In this document: piece by piece, positions 25,863 to 29,964 of the stretch
Layout: each line of letters begins with the position of its first letter
Numbering within the stretch: position 1 is the first letter of the stretch
Origin: Hyphomicrobiales bacterium
GTDB lineage: Bacteria > Pseudomonadota > Alphaproteobacteria > Rhizobiales > Rhizobiaceae
Direction of reading: 5' to 3'
Length of the DNA: 64,000 nt
Assembly (NCBI GenBank): GCA_900472175.1
Contig: UCHD01000004.1
Span: 305,723 to 369,722 of the forward strand
The notes under the pieces: model-generated
Seen by the model: only the letters and a program-made list of their open reading frames with translations
Databases searched by the model: none
What the model was told of the DNA's origin: nothing
Translations under genes and position numbers: made by a program

Positions 25863-25882
25863 TAATGGTGAGCGCGGAGTCG

Positions 25883-26032
25883 CCCCCTCTGTCCTGCCGG
25901 ACATCTCCCCCACAAGGGGGGAGATCAGCTGTGGCTGCCTCGCGCTCAAAGCTTTTGGTGCACGCGTCCCGGGGCCGCTCGGTCCCGATCTCCCCCCTTG
26001 TGGGGGAGATGTCACGCAGTGACAGAGGGGGG
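25883..26032. repeat. RIME-like palindromic mosaic repeat, cobW-cobN gap
   Basis: Two inverted copies of a module of about 43-45 bp: left 25883-25925 (begins CCCCCTCTGTC, contains ACATCTCCCCC and GGGGGGAGAT) and right 25988-26032 (ATCTCCCCCC...GGGGGAGATGTC...GACAGAGGGGGG), separated by about 62 bp. Each module folds on itself and the two pair with each other. This matches the style of rhizobial intergenic mosaic elements (RIME). A rearranged copy lies inside cobN. Confidence 0.85.
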
Positions 26033-26055: not shown

Positions 26056-29000
26056 ATGCATCTCCTTCTAGCCCAAAAGGGCACGATCACCGAGGGCGAG
26101 GAAGCGATCGATCTCGGCCAGTCGCCCGCCGATATCCTGTTTCTGTCGGCCGCCGATACCGAGCTTTCCTCGATCGCCGGAGCACATCGCACACGTGGGG
26201 CAAAGTCGAGCCTGCGGGTCGCCAGCCTTTTGACGCTCAAGCATCCGATGTCGGTTGATACCTATGTCGAGCGCACGGCGCGCCACGCCAAACTAATCAT
26301 CGTTCGCCCGCTCGGCGGCGCCAGCTATTTCCACTATGTGCTGGAGGCGCTGCATGCGGCTGCCGTCACGTATAAATTCCAGATTGCCGTGTTGCCTGGC
26401 GATGACAAGCCCGATCCAGGGCTGGAGCCTTTTTCGACCATTTCCGCCGAAGACCGCAATCGGATGTGGGCCTATTTCACCGAGGGGGGTGCCGGCAACA
26501 TGGCACGGCTGCTCGGTTATGCCGAAGCGCTGATCGATGGCTCGGAAAAGCCGGAACCGGCCGCCCCCTTGATGAAGGCAGGCATCTGGTGGCCGGGGCA
26601 GGGTGTGATCGGGGTCGAGGCCTGGAAAGCGGCGGTCGGGTTTGTCCCGGATATCGCTTCTCAATCGCCAGCCGGTTCGATTGTCGCTCTCTGCTTCTAC
26701 CGCGCGCTTGTTCAAAGTGGCGAGACCAAACCCGTCGAAGCCCTGATCGCGGCGCTTACTGCCGAGGGCATGACCGTTTTGCCGGTGTTCGTATCGAGCC
26801 TCAAGGATGCGGTGTCGATCGGCACGCTGCAGGCGATCTTTAGCGAAGTCCCGCCCACGGTGGTGATGAATGCCACTGGTTTTGCTGTTTCCGCGCCCGG
26901 GGCCGACCGCAAGCCAACCGTGCTGGAGTTTTCCGATGCGCCGGTGCTTCAGGTGATTTTTTCCGGATCCTCCCGTGCCGCTTGGGAGGCCTCGCCGCAA
27001 GGCCTGATGGCACGGGATCTGGCGATGAACGTGGCGTTGCCGGAGGTTGATGGCCGCATCCTGTCGCGGGCCGTCTCCTTCAAGGCTGCGGCCGTTTATG
27101 ACACCGAAGTCGAAGCCAATATCGTCGGCCATGAGCCGCTCGCCGACCGGATCGCCTTTGCCGCCAAACTGGCGGCCAACTGGGCGCGGCTGCGGCAGGC
27201 CGCACCGGCTGAGCGCCGCATCGCGATCATCATGGCGAATTACCCCAACCGCGACGGGCGGCTCGGCAACGGCGTCGGCCTCGATACCCCTGCCGGGACG
27301 ATCGAAGTCATGAGGGCACTGGCCACCGCCGGTTATGCGATCGATTCTATCCCCACCGACGGCGATGCCTTGATCCGGTATCTGATGGATGGACCGACCA
27401 ATTCGGCGCGGGCGGATCGCGAAATCCGCGAAACGCTTTCCTTGAGTCAATACAAGGCCTTCTTCTCATCTCTTCCCATTCGGATTCAGAATGAAGTTGC
27501 TGAGCGATGGGGTAGCCCGGAGGATGATCCGTTCTTTCGCGATGGCCGCTTCGCTCTGCCGCTGACGCGTTTCGGCGAAACGCTGGTCGGCATTCAGCCA
27601 GCGCGCGGATACAATATCGATCCAAAGGAAACCTATCACTCGCCGGACCTCGTTCCGCCGCATGGCTATCTGGCCTTCTATGCTTTCCTGCGCCGCGAAT
27701 ACGGCGTCCACGCCATCGTCCATATGGGCAAGCATGGCAATCTCGAATGGCTGCCGGGCAAATCGCTGGCGCTGTCGGAAAGCTGCTATCCGGAAGCGGT
27801 GTTCGGCCCTATGCCGCATCTCTATCCGTTCATCGTCAACGATCCAGGCGAGGGTACGCAGGCCAAGCGGCGCACCAGCGCCGTCATCATCGATCACCTG
27901 ACGCCACCGCTGACGCGGGCCGAATCCTATGGCCCGCTGAAGGACCTCGAAGCGTTGGTCGACGAATATTACGACGCGGCTGGCGGAGACCCGCGGCGTC
28001 TGCGGTTGCTCAGCAAGCAAATCCTTGAGCTTGTCCGCGATATCGGCCTCGACCAGGATGCCGGCATTGCTCGTACAGACGCTGAGGACAAGGCGCTGGA
28101 AAAGCTCGACGCCTATCTCTGCGACCTCAAGGAGCTGCAGATCCGCGACGGCCTGCATGTTTTTGGCGTGGCGCCGGAAGGGCGGCTGCTGACGGATCTG
28201 ACGGTTGCTTTGGCCCGTGTTCCGCGCGGGTTGGGCGAGGGCGGTGACCAGAGTCTGCAGCGGGCGATCGCGGCGGATGCAGGGCTGGGGTTGTCCACAT
28301 CAATCTCCCCCCCTGTGGGGGAGATGTCCGACAGGACAGAGGGGGGGAAAGCCTCCACAAGTTCTGCACCCGGGCTACCCCCCTCTATCGGCCGGGCCGA
28401 CATCTCCCCCACAAGGGGGGAGATCAACCCGGAGCGATTTTTCGACCCGCTCGACTGCGCCCTTTCCGATCCTTGGGACGGCCCGAAACCGGCGATCCTC
28501 GCTGAAGTATCCGAGGCCCCGTGGCGCACCGCTGGCGACACCGTCGAGCGTGTCGAGTTGCTGGCCGCCAAATTCGTCTCCGGCGAATTGGTTTGCCCTG
28601 ACGACTGGGTCGCCACCCGCGCCGTCCTGGAGGAAGTCGAAACCCGCCTAAAACCTTCGATCACCCAATCCGGCGCCGCCGAAATCGCTGCCTTGATGAC
28701 CGGGCTCGATGGCCGCTTTGTCGCGCCTGGCCCTTCCGGAGCGCCGACGCGCGGGCGTCCGGACGTGCTGCCGACCGGGCGCAATTTCTATTCGGTCGAC
28801 AGCCGCGCCGTGCCGACGCCGGCGGCGTTCGAGCTGGGCAAGAAATCGGCGGAGCTGTTGATCCGCCGCTATCTGCAGGATCATGGCGACTGGCCGACAT
28901 CCTTTGGCCTTACCGCCTGGGGCACATCGAACATGCGCACCGGCGGCGACGATATTGCCCAGGCGATGGCGCTGATCGGCACCAAGCCGGTCTGGGATAT

Positions 29001-29964
29001 GATGTCGCGCCGCGTCACCGGCTACGAGATCGTGCCGCTGGCGGTGTTGGGCCGTCCTCGAGTCGATGTCACCCTGCGGATTTCGGGCTTTTTCCGCGAT
29101 GCCTTCCCCGAGCAGATCGCACTGTTCGATACCGCGATCCGCGCTGTCGGTGCGCTCGAGGAGGACGATGCGGACAACATGATTGCCGCGCGCATGCGGG
29201 CGGAAACCAAACGGCTGGAAGCTGCCGGTGTCTCCACGAAGGATGCGTCACGGCGTGCCTCTTACCGGGTCTTCGGCGCGAAGCCTGGCGCTTATGGTGC
29301 CGGATTGCAGGCGCTGATGGATGAGGGCGGCTGGGATAACCGCGCCGATCTTGCCGACGCCTATCTCAGCTGGGGAAGCTATGCCTATGGCGCCGGGGAA
29401 GACGGCAAGGCCGAACGCGGGCTTCTGGAAGCGCGGCTGAAGACCGTCGAGGCCGTCGTGCAGAATCAGGATAACCGCGAGCATGATCTGCTCGACAGCG
29501 ACGATTATTACCAGTTTGAAGGCGGCATGAGCCTGGCGGTCGAGCAGATGGCCGGTACGCGGCCGAAGATCTATCACAACGACCATTCCCGCCCGGAAAA
29601 GCCGGTGATCCGCTCGCTGGAAGAAGAGATCGGCCGGGTGGTGCGCGGCCGCGTCGTCAATCCGAAATGGATCGATGGCGTCATGCGCCACGGGTACAAG
29701 GGCGCCTTCGAAATCGCCGCGACGGTCGATTACATGTTTGCCTTTGCCGCAACGACAGGCGCTGTCCGCAGCCATCATTTCGAGGCCGTCTACCAGGCCT
29801 ATGTGATGGACGAACGCGTCCGCCAGTTCATGGAGGACAAGAACCCGGATGCGTTGCGCGAAATGACCGACAAGCTGATGGAGGCGATCGATCGCGGCCT
29901 CTGGTCGCCCCGTTCGAACTCCGCCCGGTTCGAACTGCAAGGCCTTTCGGCGGCGGCGGAATAA
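26056..29964 (+). CDS. cobN: cobaltochelatase large subunit
   Basis: 1302 residues. Subunit of the ATP-dependent CobNST complex that inserts cobalt into hydrogenobyrinic acid a,c-diamide (aerobic pathway). CobN-type blocks run along the length (HAIVHMGKHGNLEWLPGKS, YNIDPKETYHSPDLVPPHGY, GKKSAELLIRRYL, WGTSNMRTGGDDIAQ). Residues about 746-793 are not CobN sequence: they are the translation of a palindromic repeat, lying between GDQSLQRAIAADAGLG and FDPLDCALSDPW. The frame is kept and no stop arises, so the gene should still be functional with a surface loop. GGGGA precedes ATG 26056. cobS and cobT are not in the window. Confidence 0.95.
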   Translation: MHLLLAQKGTITEGEEAIDLGQSPADILFLSAADTELSSIAGAHRTRGAKSSLRVASLLTLKHPMSVDTYVERTARHAKLIIVRPLGGASYFHYVLEALHAAAVTYKFQIAVLPGDDKPDPGLEPFSTISAEDRNRMWAYFTEGGAGNMARLLGYAEALIDGSEKPEPAAPLMKAGIWWPGQGVIGVEAWKAAVGFVPDIASQSPAGSIVALCFYRALVQSGETKPVEALIAALTAEGMTVLPVFVSSLKDAVSIGTLQAIFSEVPPTVVMNATGFAVSAPGADRKPTVLEFSDAPVLQVIFSGSSRAAWEASPQGLMARDLAMNVALPEVDGRILSRAVSFKAAAVYDTEVEANIVGHEPLADRIAFAAKLAANWARLRQAAPAERRIAIIMANYPNRDGRLGNGVGLDTPAGTIEVMRALATAGYAIDSIPTDGDALIRYLMDGPTNSARADREIRETLSLSQYKAFFSSLPIRIQNEVAERWGSPEDDPFFRDGRFALPLTRFGETLVGIQPARGYNIDPKETYHSPDLVPPHGYLAFYAFLRREYGVHAIVHMGKHGNLEWLPGKSLALSESCYPEAVFGPMPHLYPFIVNDPGEGTQAKRRTSAVIIDHLTPPLTRAESYGPLKDLEALVDEYYDAAGGDPRRLRLLSKQILELVRDIGLDQDAGIARTDAEDKALEKLDAYLCDLKELQIRDGLHVFGVAPEGRLLTDLTVALARVPRGLGEGGDQSLQRAIAADAGLGLSTSISPPVGEMSDRTEGGKASTSSAPGLPPSIGRADISPTRGEINPERFFDPLDCALSDPWDGPKPAILAEVSEAPWRTAGDTVERVELLAAKFVSGELVCPDDWVATRAVLEEVETRLKPSITQSGAAEIAALMTGLDGRFVAPGPSGAPTRGRPDVLPTGRNFYSVDSRAVPTPAAFELGKKSAELLIRRYLQDHGDWPTSFGLTAWGTSNMRTGGDDIAQAMALIGTKPVWDMMSRRVTGYEIVPLAVLGRPRVDVTLRISGFFRDAFPEQIALFDTAIRAVGALEEDDADNMIAARMRAETKRLEAAGVSTKDASRRASYRVFGAKPGAYGAGLQALMDEGGWDNRADLADAYLSWGSYAYGAGEDGKAERGLLEARLKTVEAVVQNQDNREHDLLDSDDYYQFEGGMSLAVEQMAGTRPKIYHNDHSRPEKPVIRSLEEEIGRVVRGRVVNPKWIDGVMRHGYKGAFEIAATVDYMFAFAATTGAVRSHHFEAVYQAYVMDERVRQFMEDKNPDALREMTDKLMEAIDRGLWSPRSNSARFELQGLSAAAE
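28303..28424. repeat. RIME-like palindromic repeat inserted in frame in cobN
   Basis: Same modules as at 25883-26032 but in the opposite arrangement: right-type module 28303-28347 (ATCTCCCCCCC...GACAGAGGGGGGG), about 30 bp spacer, left-type module 28378-28424 (CCCCCCTCTATCGG...GGGGGGAGAT). It is translated as SISPPVGEMSDRTEGG, a spacer, then PPSIGRADISPTRGEI. The coding frame is preserved across it. Confidence 0.9.

Follow-up and report, generated by a model that had tools for sequence, protein, structure and literature searches.

Can a palindromic repeat that lies scattered between the genes of a bacterium also enter a conserved enzyme and be translated there as a tolerated loop? The question is raised by cobN in the stretch of 64,000 nucleotides of a Rhizobiaceae genome analysed here as a whole (hereafter the window). 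A first-pass annotation had described in this gene a 122-bp element made of two inverted modules, and its coordinates, frame and flanks all proved correct. The features concerned are listed below in window positions.

25880..25925, + strand: F1 arm (T-P) of the intergenic cobW-cobN copy, whose tails point outwards
25988..26032, + strand: F1 arm (P-T) of the intergenic cobW-cobN copy
26056..29964, + strand: cobN, cobaltochelatase subunit CobN, 1302 aa, a single open frame across the element (open reading frame; TIGR02257 1777.8 bits, PF02514 1292.3 bits)
26605..26691, + strand: CobN site A loop, residues 184-212, free of F1-F3 here and a second insertion hotspot in relatives
28282..28440, + strand: CobN site B loop, residues 743-795, variable, from AADA to FDPLD (alignment of 97 CobN; AF2 pLDDT <50 at 746-793)
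28303..28346, + strand: F1 arm 1, palindrome then tail (P-T), in-frame reading ISPPVGEMSDRTE (sequence comparison)
28347..28377, + strand: spacer separating both arms (sequence between the arms)
28378..28424, + strand: F1 arm 2, tail then palindrome (T-P), in-frame reading PPSIGRADISPTRGE (sequence comparison)

The identity of the protein as CobN, a subunit of a vitamin B12 enzyme, is firm, given its scores against TIGR02257 and PF02514. Residues 750-790 are encoded by the element (28303-28424), which belongs to a rhizobial palindromic mosaic repeat labelled F1 here. Both of its modules, of about 45 nt, consist of a 23-nt palindrome (P) followed or preceded by a tail (T) of about 20 nt. They are ordered P-T, spacer, T-P in cobN, with tails inwards, and T-P, spacer, P-T in the cobW-cobN gap, with tails outwards. 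The kinship of these two copies and their reversed order, both announced by the first-pass annotation, are borne out by the complementarity of 25880-25925 to 28303-28348 (46 nt, 93%) and of 25976-26013 to 28399-28436 (38 nt, 87%).

When aligned with the solved CobN chain 9uk9_A, query residue 745 falls on chain residue 744 and query residue 796 on chain residue 747, 50 query residues thus facing 2 chain residues. The insert therefore adds 48-50 residues, in agreement with the gain of about 45-50 residues without stop or frameshift initially claimed, and cobN is open throughout. This open frame suggests that CobN is made with the loop. We consider it likely, with good confidence, that the element is an F1 copy that inserted into cobN without disturbing the frame and gives, on translation, a flexible loop in a part of CobN that can accommodate additional residues.

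Copies of F1 in the genome and in three proteins

A search of the 5.46-Mb genome with the 122-mer yielded 82 matching pieces at E ≤ 0.01, which group into 23 places, and 20 further regions were retrieved; several of the matches elsewhere in the genome reached 1e-13 to 1e-14, and with so many pieces at such scores the resemblance to genomic repeats is not due to chance. Once genes were called by codon usage and matches merged into 23 intervals, 20 of these fell outside called genes, mostly near gene ends, and 3 inside. The further in-gene copies that the first-pass annotation had suggested looking for were found in the tail of UvrB, beyond the UVR motif, and in FtsY, before the GTPase domain, and all three in-gene copies are in frame.

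L117:3689-3821: F1 copy in the UvrB C-tail of this genome
L123:2774-2938: F1 copy in the FtsY N-region of this genome

Tails point inwards in the CobN (28303-28424) and UvrB (L117:3689-3821) copies and outwards in the full intergenic copies and the FtsY copy of this genome.

Similar copies occur across the genus. F1-type peptides were recognized in 12 of the 23 UvrB C-tails read (25 loci, L246-L270, L257 and L267 being unread by motif), the remaining tails often harboring other repeat-like strings (SSPQRGE and similar), and in 22 of the 24 FtsY N-regions read (L271-L294). Eight FtsY present a string like EPVLGLAEGKTRGG within the tail arm, i.e., a further nested insertion. Genome G001 has no F1-type peptide in CobN (L018), UvrB (L268) or FtsY (L294), despite 13 F1-like sites in the genome. 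Annotators should be aware that an unusually long loop in CobN, UvrB or FtsY of rhizobia is in many cases repeat DNA and not a domain.

F1 was also present in 182 records of a plasmid collection, including 73 from Rhizobium and 69 from Sinorhizobium. Among the best 60 places, 55 lay in annotated records and none of these 55 under an annotated feature of a gene table that is itself incomplete, so that in-gene copies look rare in plasmids. Two contigs of the genome studied terminate in an F1 copy (L125 at a contig end, L127 at a contig start), and the CobN matches of genomes G021 and G025 are split across contigs around site B. The repeat content of draft genomes is hence likely undercounted. 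As for a known RNA family, Rfam returned at E ≤ 1 three mir-family matches far below gathering scores, which were taken as chance.

These dispersed copies contradict two trivial explanations, namely that the loop is an ancestral part of CobN that merely looks like a repeat, or that it results from an assembly error. Loop length is indeed variable in most relatives examined, as an ancestral loop might be, but the DNA of the loop is matched by repeats lying between genes elsewhere in this genome, many relatives have short loops and similar inserts recur in separate genomes. The first-pass annotation had feared that all related CobN might carry a homologous loop of unrelated DNA, and the same observations speak against this. 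Its other concern, faulty assembly of the region, is very unlikely since five other cobN genes compared have 53-codon loops with the same module order. Taken together, an ancestral repeat-like loop or an assembly error is scarcely credible.

Gain, loss and exchange at two loops of CobN

Matches to cobN were obtained in 26 of the 26 genomes of the genus searched. The comparison started from 110 loci, of which 9 partial, broken or contig-end loci (L013, L016, L022-L024, L027-L030) and 4 identical ones were dropped, leaving 97 distinct full-length proteins; as the named loci are the best 80 of 581, this set is not random. Inserts were assigned to the families F1-F3 by BLAST against four reference arms, a procedure that misses other repeat families.

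With this definition, 57 of the 97 CobN have an F1-F3 palindromic repeat in at least one loop, including 20 with repeats in both, and 40 have none. Site A was free of them in 69 proteins and contained F1 in 20 (16 tails-out, 2 tails-in, 2 single), F3 in 6 and mixtures in 2. At site B, 48 proteins had none, 32 had F1 (17 tails-out, 8 tails-in, 7 single), 14 had F2, 2 had F3 and 1 had a mixture. Composite cases include an F3 pair nested in an F1 pair (L020) and parts of two repeat families in each of L064 and L015. With repeats at the same two spots in many relatives, loops A and B look like places where repeat DNA can land and be tolerated.

The suggestion that relatives lack the insert was upheld in part. 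Short site B loops do exist, with 5 residues in Brucella/Ochrobactrum, 9 in Sinorhizobium meliloti (L040) and a short loop also in 9uk9, but close relatives are rarely empty: read by eye, 19 of 23 CobN of the same genus carry repeat sequence at site B, at times of another family. Two genomes, G015 and G017 (completeness 78 and 87), have broken CobN frames, which are taken as assembly faults given this low completeness and the similarly short or split state of their UvrB or FtsY matches.

A wider draw over the family gave a match in 108 of 161 genomes, 60 of which, mostly best-scoring, were fetched; with 7 duplicates dropped, 53 new CobN regions remained (set 2). F1-F3 repeats were recognized in 17 of these 53. 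In the family-wide regions the longest loops measure 180 residues (A) and 134 residues (B), and further repeat-like strings such as HPEPVEG and SPRLRGEG occur.

When mapped on a CobN tree from which the loops were left out, the presence and family of the inserts require at least 22 state changes at A and 31 at B when all classes are considered, and by family at least 16 for F1 and 8 for F3 at A, and 14 for F1, 12 for F2 and 2 for F3 at B, these counts lumping gain and loss. Exchange of loop content between sister genes is directly apparent in two pairs of sequences. The site B flanks of L001 and L003 are 98.7% (left, 150 nt) and 94.7% (right) identical, and those of L004 and L009 98.0% (left, 150 nt) and 94.7% (right); in both pairs one gene has F1 and the other F2, and identity ends at the loop borders. 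At site A, L009 harbors an F1 pair that L004 lacks; the difference is an in-frame one, and L004 reads GGGGGG between matching flanks.

In-gene copies also resemble the repeats of their own genome. The base in the palindrome loop is A in 31 of 40 copies of this genome, 29 of 38 in G023 and 14 of 18 in G014, and in 0 of 75, 0 of 49 and 0 of 42 copies of G002, G009 and G010, respectively (exact matches to the A form, relative to all matches with at most 2 mismatches). Within CobN loops, UvrB tails and FtsY N-regions, to which the in-gene count was limited and in which letters other than A and T were ignored, the A:T ratio was 14:2 in 3 A-rich genomes, 25:26 in 12 intermediate ones and 1:51 in 11 A-poor ones. 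The A-rich and A-poor genomes differ with a Fisher p of 1.4e-11, a value that overstates independence since the 3 A-rich genomes are sister species and in-gene copies are counted in the totals; Spearman rho is 0.76 over 22 genomes. The pattern is one of in-gene arms matching the repeat pool of the genome to which they belong, and may have arisen by conversion, repeated insertion or shared descent of both.

Selection on the insert and comparison with known repeats

In six cobN genes with a 53-codon F1-in loop, pooled as 15 non-independent pairs with common sequences, pN/pS amounts to 0.68 for the loop, compared with 0.12 for the remainder of CobN, so that the loop residues appear almost unconstrained, with the frame maintained. 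Synonymous sites diverge less inside the loop than elsewhere in CobN (0.06 vs 0.25 for L001/L002), and this would also fit a constraint at the DNA or RNA level. An AF2 prediction of residues 120-1302 from 40 sequences places the insert between two helices with a pLDDT <50 for residues 746-793, which is weakly consistent with a flexible loop. With a mean pLDDT of 68, the model is of mediocre quality, and values below 50 are given to 269 of 1183 residues, some in conserved stretches outside the insert, so that low pLDDT does not single the insert out.

The frame of the inserts is strongly biased. Palindrome-to-tail arms of F1 read ISPLxGEM in 42 of 42 phased cases in set 1 and in 16 of 19 in set 2 (58/61 in total), and tail-to-palindrome arms read DISPxRGEI in 37 of 48 and 11 of 15, respectively, all others using one second frame; the counts take in the arms in which the core motif was found (90/99 in set 1, 34/37 in set 2). 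Among 34 orientations of intergenic copies, the ISP frame is open in 23, SPP in 5 and LPP in 13. Since intergenic copies thus leave other frames open, stops explain only part of the bias. Nor is F1 specially stop-free in general: in 17 full intergenic copies, 2.4 of 6 frames are open on average, compared with 1.9 after base shuffling. Neutrality by itself would predict a weaker frame bias than is seen; shared ancestry inflates the arm counts. The rule is not absolute, as a different frame of the tail-to-palindrome arm (HLPHKGGDQ) is common in FtsY.

Such a strong frame bias, together with the same 53-codon F1-in loop in several species, could indicate that the loop was recruited as a useful protein part, e.g., for contact with CobS/CobT, and that inserts are adaptive. 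The pN/pS of the loop, its wholesale replacement by unrelated peptides in near-identical genes and the occurrence of the same repeats in UvrB and FtsY make such a recruitment very unlikely.

The hairpins might otherwise be kept for a role of the RNA or DNA, such as ribosome pausing at a domain border or mRNA processing, the peptide being a by-product. The predicted RNA fold of the element is very stable (MFE -81.6 kcal/mol, z -7.0), synonymous sites of the loop are conserved relative to the core, and hairpin-forming inserts of several families occupy the same places, as this hypothesis would require. On the contrary, 40 of 97 CobN do without F1-F3 at either loop, the site B loop of Brucella/Ochrobactrum measures only 5 residues, site A of the window cobN has none of the three families, families are swapped between sisters, and the element has no terminator-like site, a search for a transcription terminator at the element having found none. 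Homogenization with the genomic pool would, in addition, explain conservation without constraint. A nucleic acid role appears improbable on balance.

We read F1 instead as a protein-coding palindromic repeat that behaves like the palindromic elements of Rickettsia (RPEs): flexible loops tolerate it, and its in-gene copies stay matched to the intergenic ones. Copies would first have spread between genes through a mobilizing activity. Those out of frame or in folded parts would then have been lost, and the survivors are located at CobN sites A and B, in the UvrB C-tail and in the FtsY N-region; these locations are observed, whereas selection, like disorder of the UvrB and FtsY regions, is presumed. 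The residues would thereafter have been under little selection with the frame retained, as shown by pN/pS and open frames. Finally, in-gene arms could trade sequence with intergenic copies or be overwritten by them, and could also be deleted or give way to another family, a putative mechanism behind a pattern that is directly visible.

In-frame palindromic repeats as such are an already known kind. The title of a 2002 paper reportedly presented protein-coding palindromes as unique to Rickettsia; later papers described them in other bacteria too. According to the accessible parts of two papers, RPEs are short palindromic repeats found between genes and in frame inside proteins, and Wolbachia also has protein-coding palindromic repeats (PMC10969869, PMC2229807); expression and activity were reported for the RPE-bearing protein Gmk (PMC2229807). 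The likeness to RPEs proposed by the first-pass annotation, i.e., a structural repeat that disperses between genes and that proteins accept as a loop, is supported by recurrent insertion at two CobN loops, the in-frame UvrB and FtsY copies and relatives with short loops. F1 is indeed a dispersed palindromic repeat that is also intergenic, is in frame in CobN, UvrB and FtsY, and has insert-free homologues. As far as these sources describe them, it shares with the RPE and Wolbachia repeats the location between genes and in frame in unrelated conserved proteins, the recurrent peptide, and being tolerated rather than inactivating. It differs by its rhizobial hosts, by having several repeat families share two loops of a single protein throughout a bacterial family, by loop contents swapped between sisters, and by two inverted modules in either order. 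The likeness is one of kind, drawn from descriptions, and the protein products of F1 are predicted from the genes.

Palindromic repeats inside open reading frames are also described for REPs. The available portion of one study reports REPs of the GTAG and CGTC families within ORFs, many of them in repair genes including R. conorii uvrB, and, in recB genes of Xanthomonas, differing REPs at roughly one position (PMC3733652); RIME is not mentioned by name in it. F1 is similar in lying inside ORFs, but its arms of about 45 nt exceed the 20-40 bp given there for REPs (PMC3733652), and its genome has no match to a Y1 (RAYT-type) transposase at E ≤ 0.001, such matches occurring in 2 of the 26 genus genomes. 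Mobilization of F1 by a RAYT was rejected on this ground.

RIMEs, the Rhizobium-specific intergenic mosaic elements, are treated as intergenic in the accessible text (PMC2573895). Compared by description only, F1 resembles them in being rhizobial, multi-copy, palindromic, mosaic and mostly intergenic, whereas it is also in frame in three proteins. As outlined in the parts available, MITEs such as Correia and ERIC are likewise short, with inverted-repeat ends, devoid of their own gene and known from in-frame fusions (PMC10969869, PMC2229807). For F1, a possible TA target duplication is seen as an enrichment of TA at the outer ends, with a 3′ TA in 8 of 18 copies, both sides in 1 of 18 as scripted, and a 5′ TA in 2 of 18 (as many as 10 of 18 once the 8 TT rows are taken as TTA with the A assigned to the element); TA makes up 1.7% of the window.

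No report of rhizobial in-frame repeats or CobN inserts was found in the open-licence literature searched. As far as this search reaches, the new points are that different repeat families occupy the same loops of a single enzyme throughout a bacterial family, that sister genes show exchange, and that in-gene arms agree with the genomic pool. Rhizobia have protein-coding palindromes in core proteins, and sister genes differ in their presence or family at 95-99% flanking identity. With this natural series of empty, filled and exchanged alleles, it becomes possible to test, in bacteria that are genetically tractable and non-pathogenic, what protein-coding repeats cost, which frame rule they obey and how they move.

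Matches to tRNA 3′ ends at site A

Loops free of F1-F3 were compared, by ungapped matches, to 40 distinct tRNA genes, with 120 control CobN windows, the best of which scored 14.5. This mark was exceeded by 19 of the 69 F1-F3-free site A loops, and by 0 of the 19 F1-F3-free site B loops of at least 20 nt; in set 2, it was exceeded by L211 and, barely, L220 only. The site A matches fall in the last ~32 nt of the tRNA and reach the CCA end in 11 of 19 cases, 17 being antisense and 2 sense. The best-matching tRNAs vary, with two tRNA-Met, Arg-TCT, Ser-TGA and Trp. In the two genomes checked, the fragment was identical to a tRNA of the same genome at 31 of 32 and 30 of 32 positions.

Sites A and B could be true capture sites, at which one process repeatedly inserts or exchanges short hairpin DNAs as in-frame cassettes, from at least three palindromic families and from the 3′ ends of different tRNA genes (T-arm towards CCA, mostly antisense), an extension that we hold rather unlikely.

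In genome G027, the 3′ end of a tRNA-Met is repeated about 22 kb apart over ~50 nt (G027:C6:154632 and G027:C6:177025, loci L134 and L139), as expected for an element integrated at that tRNA. This repeat is longer than the stretches in cobN, and an integrase att scar was not adopted as the source of the tRNA fragments.

In-frame tRNA-like fragments were seen at site A of L075, L035, L043, L076, L034, L062, L074, L054, L045, L049, L053 and others, and the sister species L053 and L074 match different tRNAs there.
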